Of a stretch of DNA of 23,627 bases, positions 10,115-14,038 are shown in pieces. The translations under genes were made by a program, and so were the position numbers. A model generated the notes under the pieces. That model did not search any database. It worked only from the letters and a program-made list of their open reading frames with translations, and was not told the origin of the DNA. The first letter of the stretch is position 1. Each line of letters begins with the position of its first letter. Location of the stretch: positions 1 through 23,627 of IMG/VR virus record IMGVR_UViG_3300044692_000147; one strand, written 5' to 3'. The DNA is from a virus.

Positions 10115-11664
10115 TGGGGTTGAAGCGGGCGTTCGTCCGGTCGATCGGTCACGTGCCCGACGCGCCGCCCACGACCGGGCCGCGGCTGTCGTTCTGGGCG
10201 AACCTGCGGGACTCGGTGGGTGTCGCCCCGCAGGGTGTGTCCGGCAACAGTGGACTGTGGCTCTGGCATGACGTGATGAGCATTCCTGCGTTCTGGCGCG
10301 GGTCGAACCTCTTGTCTGACCTGATGGCGCAAGTCGACTGGGACGCGTTCACCGTGCACGGCCGCGACCAGGAGGAACTGGTCACGCCCCGCCCGTCGCT
10401 GTTGGAGCAGCCGTCACCCCCGGACGCCCGGTATGTCACGCTGAAGTCCGGATTCCTGGACTTCTTGATCAACGGGAACGCGCTGTTCGTGATCGCGACG
10501 CGGGACACCGCTGGCCGGCCCACGTCGGTGTGGCCGGTTCCGGCGGCGTGGTGTGGTGTCCGCCGTGTCGGGCCGGGTGCCAGTTCGATGCTGCCGAAGG
10601 GCGCCATCGAGTACAGCATCGCGGGTCAGACGTATGACTCGTCCGAGGTGATCCACGTCAAGGGTCCTTGCGGGCCTGGCAGCCTGAGAGGCTTTGGCAT
10701 CCTCGAAGCGCACTTTGCTGGTGCGATCGCGACGGCGCACGAGCAGCAGCGGTTCGTGCGGAACATGTCCCGGCCGGGTGTGCCACCGGGCTACATCCAG
10801 TCCAGCGACCCGGACGTGACCGAGGACGAACTGGACGACGCGCGGGCGAACTGGATGCGTCGCCGCGACGAGGGTGGTGTCGCCGCGCTGTCGGCGAACG
10901 CGAAGTTCGAGGCGATCGCCTGGAATCCCGATGACATGCAGCTGATCGAGGCCCGGCAGCTCAACCAGAACGAGATTGCGAACCTGCTGGGCCTGCCGGC
11001 CGGGTTCGTCAACTCGACCAACAGCGGCGGGACCTCGCTCACCTACGCCACGTTGGACATGGAGGCTCGCGCGCTGATCAAGCTCACGATGGGCGGGCAC
11101 TTCGTGAACTGGGAGCAGACGTTGTCCCTGGTGTTCCCGCGCGGCACGCGGGTGCGGGCGAACCTGGACCAGTTCCTGCGCACCGACACCCAGTCGAGGT
11201 ACAACGCCTACTTCTCCGGTATCTCCGCTGGCTGGTTGCGTCGGTCGGAGGTGCGTCGCCTGGAGAACCTGCCGCCGGTGGCCGGCATCGACGACGAGCC
11301 GCTGCCGGCCAAGGCGGAGAAGAACCTGATGTGGACCGACCCGAAGGCCGGTGAGGCGGTGCCGCCGCCGGGCGCACCGATCCAGGCCACGGCGCAGCGC
11401 GTCCCGGAACTGGATGGTGTGCGGGCGGCGTCCCGGCTGCCACTGTCGGAGAACGGCCGGCACCTGTGGAACTGGTTGACCTCCGCGCCGGGCATGGCTC
11501 ACTACCTGACCGCCGAGCACCCGTGGATGACGCTGCGGGACTTCCTGCTCGAACACGGCGTCGCTGCCGACGAGGCAGACGGCGAGGCAACGAACATCAT
11601 GTTGGCGACCGCGGCCGGGCGTGCCGCGTTCCAGGCGCATCACCAGGGAGCCGACCATGGCTGA
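10114..11664 (+). CDS. Portal protein, HK97-like family
   Basis: This 516-residue protein is the dodecameric portal through which DNA is packaged and to which the neck attaches. Typical portal features are the LLSDLMAQVDWDAF start of the wing, FLDFLINGNALFVI with the PTSVWPVPAAWCGV segment, and the LNQNEIANLLGLPAGFVN motif followed by TSLTYATLDMEAR and the stem helix. The ATG at 10114 overlaps the preceding stop (TGATG), with GGGAGG seven bases upstream. The C-terminal 80 residues are a Pro-rich and helical extension that overlaps the protease gene by eight bases. Confidence 0.94.
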   Translation: MGLKRAFVRSIGHVPDAPPTTGPRLSFWANLRDSVGVAPQGVSGNSGLWLWHDVMSIPAFWRGSNLLSDLMAQVDWDAFTVHGRDQEELVTPRPSLLEQPSPPDARYVTLKSGFLDFLINGNALFVIATRDTAGRPTSVWPVPAAWCGVRRVGPGASSMLPKGAIEYSIAGQTYDSSEVIHVKGPCGPGSLRGFGILEAHFAGAIATAHEQQRFVRNMSRPGVPPGYIQSSDPDVTEDELDDARANWMRRRDEGGVAALSANAKFEAIAWNPDDMQLIEARQLNQNEIANLLGLPAGFVNSTNSGGTSLTYATLDMEARALIKLTMGGHFVNWEQTLSLVFPRGTRVRANLDQFLRTDTQSRYNAYFSGISAGWLRRSEVRRLENLPPVAGIDDEPLPAKAEKNLMWTDPKAGEAVPPPGAPIQATAQRVPELDGVRAASRLPLSENGRHLWNWLTSAPGMAHYLTAEHPWMTLRDFLLEHGVAADEADGEATNIMLATAAGRAAFQAHHQGADHG

Positions 11665-12325
11665 GTTCGACCGCTCGGTGACCGCCGAGCTGTACATCCG
11701 GTCCGCTGCGCAGGGCGGTGACGGTCGGACGGTGCACGGCATCACGGTGCCGTTCGACACGCCGACGTTCATCGAGCCGGGGTTGACCGAGTCGTTCGAC
11801 CGGGCGGCGTTCAACCACCAGATGGGCGCGATCCACCGGGTGCCGCTGTTCCACGGGCACAAGGTGCACGGCGGCAGGCACGTCGGGCATCTGACGATGG
11901 CACGGTCGGACCCGGCCGGCCTGTACGTGGAGGGCCGGGCCAGCCGGACACAGGCGGGTGACGAGTTCCTGGAGATGGTGAAGGACGGCAGCCTGCCGCA
12001 CTTCTCGGTGGGGTTCCGGGTGAGCCCGTCCGGGTCGCTGATGCGCGGTGGGGTGACGCACCGGGTGCGGGCGGACCTGTCCGAGGTCGCCGGTGTCCCG
12101 GAGGGCGCCTACGGCGACCATGCGGCGATCGCGGGTGTGCGGGCGTTGACGACGGCGGCCAACGGTGTGGGTCTGGTCCAGCCGGGCGGCGTCGAGGATC
12201 CCGACCACGACGCCGACAACGACTCGGCGTTGATGGACCTGTTGGCCGACTGCACCCCGGAGGAGTGCGCGCGGCTGGCGCAGATGGCCGAGCAGATGGT
12301 TGCCGAGGGGAGCCACGTGGCATGA
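11657..12325 (+). CDS. HK97-family prohead protease
   Basis: This 222-residue protein is the procapsid maturation protease. It carries the family signature: ELYIRS start, VHGITVPFDTP, PLFHGHK with catalytic-type His66/His68, DEFLEMVKDG and LPHFSVGF with the nucleophile-type Ser117. It would cleave the N-terminal scaffold region of the capsid protein. The ATG at 11657 overlaps the portal gene by eight bases, with AGGGAG six bases upstream. The acidic C-terminal tail (DPDHDADND) is likely a self-processed region. Confidence 0.92.
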   Translation: MAEFDRSVTAELYIRSAAQGGDGRTVHGITVPFDTPTFIEPGLTESFDRAAFNHQMGAIHRVPLFHGHKVHGGRHVGHLTMARSDPAGLYVEGRASRTQAGDEFLEMVKDGSLPHFSVGFRVSPSGSLMRGGVTHRVRADLSEVAGVPEGAYGDHAAIAGVRALTTAANGVGLVQPGGVEDPDHDADNDSALMDLLADCTPEECARLAQMAEQMVAEGSHVA

Positions 12326-12585
12326 GCAGGTTCGACGAATTGACGGCGGAACTGGCCGCGAAGGGCGCCACCGACCCGGCTGGGTTGGCGCGGCACATCG
12401 GGATGCGCAAGTACGGCGCCGAGGGGTTCAAGGCGTTGCAGGCCGCCGGCCGGGCGCGTCGCCGGCATTCGACCGGTACCCGGTCGGTGTGTCCGTCCTG
12501 TGCGGCCCTGCGGGCGGCGGAGCCGACGCGTGCGGCGCGTGTGGCGGCGATGGTGGCGAATCTGCCGGTTCTGCCGTTGTCGTGA
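12322..12585 (+). CDS. Small CxxC hypothetical protein between protease and capsid
   Basis: This 87-residue helical protein has one CPSC pair at about residues 57-60 and a basic RARRRHS segment before it. It is not recognised. The ATG overlaps the protease stop (ATGA), with GAGGGGAG about nine bases upstream, so it is probably translated. The position between protease and capsid suggests a small capsid assembly or decoration factor, but nothing in the sequence proves this. Confidence 0.6.
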   Translation: MSRFDELTAELAAKGATDPAGLARHIGMRKYGAEGFKALQAAGRARRRHSTGTRSVCPSCAALRAAEPTRAARVAAMVANLPVLPLS

Positions 12586-12727
12586 GCTACACTCGCGTCT
12601 GAACGGCCGACACCCCGGTTCGCGACGGCGACACCCCGGCTGCCAGTAGGGCAGGCGACACCCCGCCGGTATGGGCGCTCCGACACCCCGGTCAAGTGAT
12701 CAGTCCACTTGACACCGGGAGAGTGTC
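12586..12727 (+). promoter_or_regulatory. Capsid mRNA leader with four repeats complementary to its RBS
   Basis: This is the longest non-coding gap in the structural genes. It contains CGACACCCCGG at 12608-12618, 12629-12639, 12656-12665 (10 of 11) and 12681-12691. The capsid ribosome binding site region CCGGGAGAGTGTC (12715-12727) is complementary to the repeat: GACAC pairs with GTGTC and CCCGG with CCGGG, leaving AGA bulged. A separate local hairpin (CCCGGTCAAGTG against CACTTGACACCGGG, loop about 12699-12705) also takes in the start of the Shine-Dalgarno. A TACACT -10-like hexamer lies at 12588-12593. This looks like a regulatory leader controlling capsid translation; no known RNA class is recognised. 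Confidence 0.6.
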
Positions 12728-14038
12728 GTGCCCAACCCATACTTGAGCCGGCTGCGTGAGCAGTACGAGTCCATCCGTTCCGCCGTCGAGGGTTTCCAGC
12801 AGCGCGCGGTCGACGAGAACCGCGACCTGACCGAGGACGAGCTGCGTGCCGTCACCGGGCAGACCGAGCAGGCCCGCAGCATCTACGCGCAGATCGAGGC
12901 GCTGACCGAGCAGGAGAAGCGCAACCAGGCGGTCGGCGAACTGGCCGCGAACCTGGAGAACGGCGCCGACGAGCAGGCCCGTGCCGCCGGCCGGACGACC
13001 GGCACCGCCTACACCCAGGCGAGGGACCCCGGTCATTACCGGTCGGTGAAGGACGGCGGCCGGTACTCGTTCTTCGGCGACATGTTCCGCGCCGGCAAGG
13101 ACGGCGACGAGGCGGCCAAGCGGCGCCTGTCCGAGCACCAGCGCGCGGTGACGCAGTCCTCGGGCGGAACGGGCATCCTGCCGCCCAAGTGGCTGACCGA
13201 CGAGTACCAGGCGATGGGCCGGCAGAACCGTGTCCTTGCCGACCTGGTGCGCCGGATTCCGCTGGGCGACGACCCGCGGCCGATCAACCTGCCCAAGCAG
13301 ACCGCGCAGACCGACGCGAACCTGCTCTCGCAGTCCGCCGAGGGTGCGAACACCTCGGGTTGGGGCAACGACCGGTTCACCACGAACAAGGACACCCTGA
13401 CGCCGACCACGTACGCGGCGTACCAGGACGTGTCCCGGCAGTTGCTCAACGGTTCGGACCCGGCCGTGGACGCGCTGATCATGGGTGACCTGCACGGCGC
13501 GTGGGACACGAAGATGGAGGCGCTGGTCGGCGCGGCCGTCGTGTCCGGTGGCACCACGGCGGCGACGTTCGCGACGCTGACGCTGTTCAAGGCCAACGCG
13601 GCGGGTATCGACGCGGTCGTGGACGCGCAGACCGCGGTCGCGGGTGACCTGCGCGGCCCGGCGGACATCGCGGCGATGTCGTACTTCTCCTTCGGTGCGT
13701 TCCGGAAGCTGAAGGACAGCAGCAACCGGCCGTTGATGCCGGTCAGCCGGTACAACCCGCAGAACGCCCGCGGGTCGCTGGGCAACGTCCTGGTCGGTGA
13801 CATCGAGGGTGTCGACGCGTACGGCACCGTCGGCATCGTCCGGGCCACGAACACGGAGACCATCGCCGTGATGCGGTCGCAGGCGGTCCTGTTCGCCGAG
13901 TCCGACCTGCTCCAGTTCTCCTACGACCAGGTCGTGGGCCCGGCCGCGGTGCGGATGGGCATCTTCGGCTACGCCGGCGTGCTGGTCCGCAACCCGGTCA
14001 GCGTGCAGTTGGTCGTCATCACGGATGCGACGACGTGA
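12728..14038 (+). CDS. Major capsid protein, HK97 fold
   Basis: This 436-residue protein has the two-part HK97 layout. The first ~100 residues are a charged helical scaffold (delta) region (RLREQYESIRSAVEGFQQRA, then EQARSIYAQIEALTEQEKRN) normally removed by the prohead protease. The capsid domain follows: GGTGILPPKWLTDEYQA, RRIPLGDDPRPINLPK, YAAYQDVSRQLLNGSDPAVD, and a C-terminal segment with LLQFSYDQVVGPAAVRMGIF. GTG at 12728 has GGGAG six bases upstream inside a structured leader. The cluster protease-capsid confirms the assignment. Confidence 0.93.
   Translation: MPNPYLSRLREQYESIRSAVEGFQQRAVDENRDLTEDELRAVTGQTEQARSIYAQIEALTEQEKRNQAVGELAANLENGADEQARAAGRTTGTAYTQARDPGHYRSVKDGGRYSFFGDMFRAGKDGDEAAKRRLSEHQRAVTQSSGGTGILPPKWLTDEYQAMGRQNRVLADLVRRIPLGDDPRPINLPKQTAQTDANLLSQSAEGANTSGWGNDRFTTNKDTLTPTTYAAYQDVSRQLLNGSDPAVDALIMGDLHGAWDTKMEALVGAAVVSGGTTAATFATLTLFKANAAGIDAVVDAQTAVAGDLRGPADIAAMSYFSFGAFRKLKDSSNRPLMPVSRYNPQNARGSLGNVLVGDIEGVDAYGTVGIVRATNTETIAVMRSQAVLFAESDLLQFSYDQVVGPAAVRMGIFGYAGVLVRNPVSVQLVVITDATT

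Follow-up and report, generated by a model that had tools for sequence, protein, structure and literature searches.

A predicted rod-shaped RNA with facing CACC loops in the leaders of phage major capsid genes

What is the role of short tandem repeats located directly in front of a phage capsid gene? This question is raised by the viral record IMGVR_UViG_3300044692_000147, analysed here as a single stretch of 23,627 nucleotides (the window). The intergenic gap between the end of the upstream gene (12585) and the GTG start codon of the major capsid protein (MCP) gene (12728) harbours four copies of CGACACCCCG, all on the plus strand (12608-12617, 12629-12638, 12656-12665 and 12681-12690). Four copies before the capsid GTG had been pointed out in a first-pass annotation, and they are confirmed: they span 12608-12690, downstream of a -10-like box, and precede the MCP GTG by 38-120 nt. 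Three of the four copies are CGACACCCCGG; the third copy ends in C. The nine-mer GACACCCCG occurs seven times in the window versus 0.87 expected (at least seven in none of 100 shuffles), and four of the seven occurrences fall inside 82 nt. Capsid protein is the most abundant product of tailed phages, and the matching of its supply to assembly is poorly known in actinophages.

The MCP gene (12728-14038, plus strand) encodes a protein of 436 aa, identified as an HK97-type capsid protein by Pfam (PF05065, E 1e-11) and PHROG (2263, E 5e-34) matches. A prohead protease gene is located at 11621-12325. Between them, and adjoining the leader, lies a small ORF of 88 aa (12321-12585) with a CPSC motif and the C-terminal sequence LPVLPLS, for which Pfam and PHROG searches returned no match. 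A similar LPxLP tail closes the upstream gene in many relatives, and CPNC is found in L107.

Relatives were sought in viral contigs by capsid protein, by capsid alignments and by repeat patterns. About 100 homologous capsid leaders were obtained, the capsids themselves being down to about 25-30% identical. In nearly all of them, two to six copies of RCACCY (R is A or G, sometimes C; Y is C or T), all pointing the same way, sit immediately ahead of the capsid start; 54 of the 97 leaders tallied have exactly four. The segments of four-repeat leaders are designated S0-R1-I12-R2-I23-R3-I34-R4-S5 below.

Three pairing models were compared on identical columns in 41 non-redundant four-repeat leaders. 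Only the nested rod (S0 with S5, I12 with I34 at both ends, I23 with itself) covaries. In this structure, the flanks pair to form helix P0, I12 pairs with I34 (P1), I23 folds into a hairpin (P2), and the repeats become halves of internal loops. P0 is paired in 77% of cases (z 7.0), outer P1 in 74% (z 6.8), inner P1 in 85% (z 10.3) and P2 in 82% (z 8.0), none of 500 shuffles scoring as high for any of them. In the same leaders, hairpins formed locally around each repeat, or by I12 or I34 folding on itself, reached only z -0.4 to 2.3. A model in which each repeat forms its own hairpin (CCG-ACACCC-CGG) was rejected as well, since it scored at shuffle level with no covariation in 63 leaders. Further, the lengths of I12 and I34 correlate at 0.87, versus 0.27 and 0.13 for other segment pairs. 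These shuffle controls disregard phylogeny, which is offset in part by the same-column alternatives, by the length correlation and by a sliding control, where shifting the partner by one to three columns lowered pairing to 23-44%.

The rod was also predicted by RNAalifold without prompting from a MAFFT alignment of 18 sequences, in which 88.8% of pairs are formed and the covariation score is 0.432 versus 0.154 after shuffling. When 63 leaders were aligned to a covariance model, 86.4% of rod cells pair; such an alignment is biased towards the model structure, and a free RNAalifold fold on it gave the same helices. Compensatory double changes occupy 203 cells versus 69.8 in shuffled data, and all 16 pairs have changes on both sides. 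P0 (helix 1) is 82% paired in this alignment, with double changes in all four of its pairs, and P2 (helix 4) is 90% paired. Complementarity of I12 and I34 is kept, as read by eye, even in the AT-rich leader L090. Judged from these sequence comparisons, it is nearly certain that homologous leaders form the nested rod R1-I12-R2-[hairpin]-R3-I34-R4.

In the window, the covariance model matches at 12600-12697 on the plus strand (cmsearch with model R1, 56.9 bits, E 9e-10; the window is among its 18 training sequences). All parts described here lie on the same strand. P0 is formed by GGCCG (12605-12609) and CGGTC (12689-12693). Repeat R1 (ACACCC, 12610-12615) constitutes the loop half opposite R4 (ACACCC, 12683-12688). 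P1 follows, with its 5' strands CGG (12616-12618), CGC (12621-12623) and CGGCG (12626-12630) in I12 (12616-12630) and its 3' strands CGCCG (12664-12668), GCG (12675-12677) and CCG (12680-12682) in I34 (12664-12682). R2 (ACACCC, 12631-12636) is opposite R3 (ACACCC, 12658-12663), and the rod is capped by I23 (12637-12657), that is, hairpin P2 composed of CGGCTGCC (12637-12644) and GGCAGGCG (12650-12657) with loop AGTAG. Downstream, the region 12689-12713 contains the 3' strand of P0 overlapping another hairpin, P3, formed by GTCAAGTG (12691-12698) and CACTTGAC (12706-12713). The 3' edge of P3 abuts the Shine-Dalgarno sequence GGGAG (12717-12721), assigned from the sequence, six nucleotides before the GTG. 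The pentamer GTGTC (12723-12727), complementary to GACAC of the repeats, is found mainly in the clade of the window.

A -10-like hexamer, TACACT, is located at 12588-12593, 22 nt before repeat 1, and the predicted transcript start is likely at about 12600. Of the 41 non-redundant leaders, 38 have a TANNNT box within the stretch 10-50 nt ahead of repeat 1 (9.3 expected), and none has one in a control stretch after R4 (7.6 expected). The distance from the end of R4 to the start codon is 17-55 nt. A P3 stem of at least six pairs is present in S5 of 20 of the 41 leaders, its 3' edge lying mostly at -12 to -15, just 5' of the Shine-Dalgarno sequence, and P0 and P3 overlap in the window as in many other leaders. 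Given the box before R1 and the placement of R4 and P3 near the start codon, the rod is probably the first folded part of the capsid transcript. The window leader thus belongs to the rod RNA family both by structure (P0, P1 and P2 helices with four facing RCACCY repeats) and by location, after a -10 box and directly 5' of the capsid gene.

We examined the loops across 252 repeat copies. Positions 2-5 are almost invariant (C in 252, A in 249, C in 252 and C in 246 copies). Position 1 of one repeat lies opposite position 6 of its partner; in all 24 cases of T at position 6 the opposite base is A, compared with 46-71% in other registers. The loops are closed by G-C, A-U or A.C opposition. It follows that the invariant element is CACC opposite CACC, arranged symmetrically in that R1 faces R4 and R2 faces R3. 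Moreover, 32 of 61 leaders have one and the same base at position 1 of their four copies, whereas 9.7 would be expected. This concerted identity suggests that one factor reads every copy, although recent shared ancestry of the copies could contribute.

To what extent is the element specific to capsid genes? At E<=0.01, covariance model R1 matched 55 of 81 sources from the first capsid family; in a second set, 34 of 74 sources were matched. Every one of these matches (89 of 155 sources) lies on the coding strand, immediately ahead of the MCP gene; 71 of the 89 lie outside the training set, some being near-duplicates. The first off-target matches had E-values of 0.019 and 0.23. Further model matches precede other HK97-type capsids, including that of an AT-rich phage (L090). 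The leader had been described in the first pass as a multi-copy, self-complementary structure tied to the capsid gene, and both covariation and covariance-model matches bear this out. Loci selected by repeat pattern yielded additional capsid leaders along with low-complexity false positives. The latter were GGCACCCCGAAG arrays scored by the model (L329, L341, L356); the same three loci contain long tandem arrays of GGCACCCCGAAGNTC-like 15-mers, low in complexity and not linked to capsid genes.

Hosts identified so far are actinobacteria. The leader is present in Pseudonocardia broussonetiae plasmid NZ_CP053567 and in Amycolatopsis plasmid pAmyYIM10, both with phage capsid genes, and also in an Amycolatopsis thermalba contig. 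The two plasmids, L369 (P. broussonetiae plasmid unnamed3) and L368 (pAmyYIM10), are circular records containing phage protease and capsid genes with the rod leader, and they are probably phage-plasmids. A model search of host genomes of one genus, with few candidates scored per genome, gave a sole match, inside a coding region (L321), which was discarded as chance. No rod was found in the collection of isolated phages; the nearest capsids there belong to Mycobacterium phages, and the leaders read carry other repeats. Some related capsid families of cultured mycobacteriophages have other repeated hairpins in the capsid leader in place of the rod. Therefore, presence of the rod is not strictly tied to capsid relatedness, and its binding partner need not be the capsid protein.

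The first-pass annotation was aware of no described class with such a layout. In agreement with this, Rfam 15 gave no matches at the gathering threshold in the window and in ten relatives, and the best sub-threshold matches in the leader were at chance level (E 0.14 and 0.76). No description of the rod family was found in the literature searched (open-licence papers). The family is thus new to Rfam and to this literature, although structured leaders acting in cis are a known kind. The rod spans very different capsids and host compositions, yet it is missing from Rfam.

Our preferred reading, held tentatively, is that the leader is a conserved cis-acting structured 5'-UTR, a platform with several sites for an RNA-binding factor through which MCP expression is adjusted. 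The two-fold symmetric loops would be candidate sites for a trans-acting factor encoded by the phage or its host; the capsid protein and an assembly partner are among the possibilities. With several equivalent sites, the degree to which they are filled could determine how efficiently the highly abundant capsid mRNA is translated or how long it lasts, perhaps through a choice between P0 and an extended P3 able to cover the Shine-Dalgarno sequence. Thermodynamic predictions count against this reading, as do the ordinary Shine-Dalgarno accessibility and the rod-free leaders of some related capsid families. According to the nearest-neighbour model, the rod lies a median of 7.8 kcal/mol above the minimum and other folds are preferred in most leaders; in the window, other folds that close the Shine-Dalgarno sequence are favoured by about 15 kcal/mol. 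P2 and inner P1 are included in the unconstrained fold of 30 of 41 leaders, P0 in that of one. Large internal loops are penalised by energy models, and the cost of the rod could be paid by a bound factor.

A more specific version of the platform reading, which we consider distinctly less probable, is that the capsid protein or an assembly factor binds the tandem CACC x CACC loops cooperatively. The phage would in this way measure free subunits and adjust capsid translation, and in other actinophage groups the equivalent position would be occupied by tandem hairpins unrelated to the rod. If true, this would represent a new regulatory RNA class controlling capsid supply in dsDNA phages. The coat-protein operators of MS2, PP7 and Qbeta type consist of a single bulged hairpin over the replicase gene start. 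Like them, the rod is a phage RNA structure beside a start codon, linked to the capsid, with proposed tuning of synthesis by a protein; unlike them, it has several symmetric internal loops on a long rod and resides in the capsid mRNA of dsDNA phages, upstream of the Shine-Dalgarno sequence. Should any protein read the CACC loops, it and the rod would form a new RNA-protein pair with which expression could be controlled in actinobacteria. The rod offers a handle for this, with its defined structure, invariant loop residues and ready covariance model.

The original interpretation of the repeats was different: each was proposed to pair with the segment carrying the capsid Shine-Dalgarno sequence and ending at the start codon, in competition with a local hairpin. 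In the window, the pairing of repeat GACAC/CCGG with CCGGG (12715-12719) and GTGTC (12723-12727) does exist and is used by one copy, GACACCCCGG, in the unconstrained minimum-energy fold. The competing hairpin GTCAAGTG/CACTTGAC is likewise physically possible and appears in the unconstrained fold. A two-state switch can be built from these parts, in which one repeat and P3 pair in the free RNA via CCGG/GTGTC with the Shine-Dalgarno and start region, until a factor bound to the rod frees them. The overlap of P0 and P3 in the window and many leaders would suit such a switch, and the GACAC/GTGTC complementarity is kept in L161, L162 and L163 besides the window. We nevertheless regard it as rather improbable. 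GTGTC is missing before the start in most other leaders, and in L218 the repeats have become GCCAC facing GTGTT, which creates a mismatch. Own repeats barely beat swapped ones at the start region of the 41 non-redundant leaders (mean duplex -10.3 versus -9.9 kcal/mol, the former equalled or bettered in 41 of 2000 permutations; mean rank 0.51). Shine-Dalgarno accessibility is the same for MCP and control genes (0.33 versus 0.33, P 0.99). On the strength of the swap test, the distribution of GTGTC and the ordinary accessibility, the general anti-Shine-Dalgarno reading fails; instead of four interchangeable antisense strands, relatives covary in a different structure, the rod. The leader resembles ROSE/fourU-type thermometers and ribosomal protein leaders that sequester the Shine-Dalgarno sequence in that its structure ends at this sequence. 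Unlike them, it displays neither covarying repeat pairing with the Shine-Dalgarno or start region nor lowered accessibility. An alternative fold closing the Shine-Dalgarno sequence is possible as a lineage-specific trait of the window's clade.

In two-repeat leaders L164, L166, L168 and L170, a 5' GACGCCG has its complement, CGGCGTC or a sequence close to it, immediately ahead of the ATG. This may be a long-range closing helix specific to that subgroup. The repeats were also considered as mimics of the 16S 3' end, a candidate rejected because the mimicry is lost in variants ACACAC (L257), ACCCCT (L263) and CCTC (L252).

Alternatively, the rod and P3 might guard the capsid mRNA against 5' decay and screen the ribosome site from upstream sequence, the loops merely setting geometry. 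The rod starts within about 15 nt of the predicted transcript start, and P3 ends just 5' of the Shine-Dalgarno sequence in most leaders with long P3, as would be expected of such a stabiliser or insulator. However, this function needs neither a near-invariant CACC core across GC-rich and AT-rich phages nor concerted change of the copies, and we regard this function, too, as rather improbable.

It is unlikely that the nascent rod modifies RNA polymerase to permit read-through of the long head-tail operon, as a put-like or EAR-like element would. There is a precedent in HK022 putRNA, a phage RNA that is short and, while nascent, acts on RNA polymerase in early operons to suppress pausing and termination (PMC9378689). 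The rod is similarly short, structured and promoter-proximal, and the transcript that it heads has to run through the structural genes. It differs from putRNA in its fold, its occurrence is confined to sites immediately ahead of capsid genes, where 17-55 nt separate repeat 4 from the start codon, and no Rfam family matches. Still less credible is a sensor of small molecule, ion or pH, for which the C.C and A.C oppositions of the invariant and symmetric CACC x CACC loops would offer a ligand or proton site: the element is restricted to capsid genes, no metabolic gene is linked to it, and riboswitch families gave no match. Finally, a DNA operator, that is, a phage transcription factor binding same-strand tandem repeats on double-stranded DNA just past the promoter, can be practically dismissed, since such an array would function independently of RNA helices, whereas the helices between the repeats covary with compensatory changes and strand polarity before MCP genes is strict.

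Arrays of TGACACCCC/GGGGTGTC-like repeats distant from capsid genes were noticed in many viral contigs (L005, L048, L092, L095, L133 and others). They represent a separate feature, possibly DNA sites. An interpretation of the capsid-leader repeats as iterons or operators was rejected, since the TGACACCCC arrays near other genes, without capsid context, are a different feature.

Other short repeated motifs are known from mycobacteriophages. The start-associated sequences, and likewise the repeats of 17 bp that characterise Cluster O, are distributed genome-wide near many genes (PMC4351075). They resemble rod repeats in being short phage motifs, some of them near gene starts; the rod differs in occurring once per phage locus, before the capsid gene, and in its covarying structure. 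Two TCTCGYTRGCCGAGAGGGCTG copies precede the capsid gene of phage Firecracker (L127, NC_023712.1, about 715-770), and no mention of them was found in the consulted passages of the Cluster O genome paper (PMC4351075).

Capsid leaders of Mycobacterium phage MooMoo (L126, NC_051721.1, about 800-880) and prophiGD91-2 (L129, about 615-690) contain three hairpins whose stems vary while the loop stays similar (GAA..GCAGTA or GTAGTA). Examples are GGCC-GAACAGTAGTA-GGCC, TGACC-GAATGGCAGTA-GGTCA and GGCT-GAATTGCAGTA-AGCC. As judged from these repeats, another kind of tandem RNA-like element occupies the place that the rod has in other leaders. Two copies of CCCTGGCACTGGG, a short hairpin common to two phage groups, are found in the capsid leaders of phages Courthouse (L128, NC_023690.1, about 740-800) and Bipper (L130, NC_031253.1, about 680-725).
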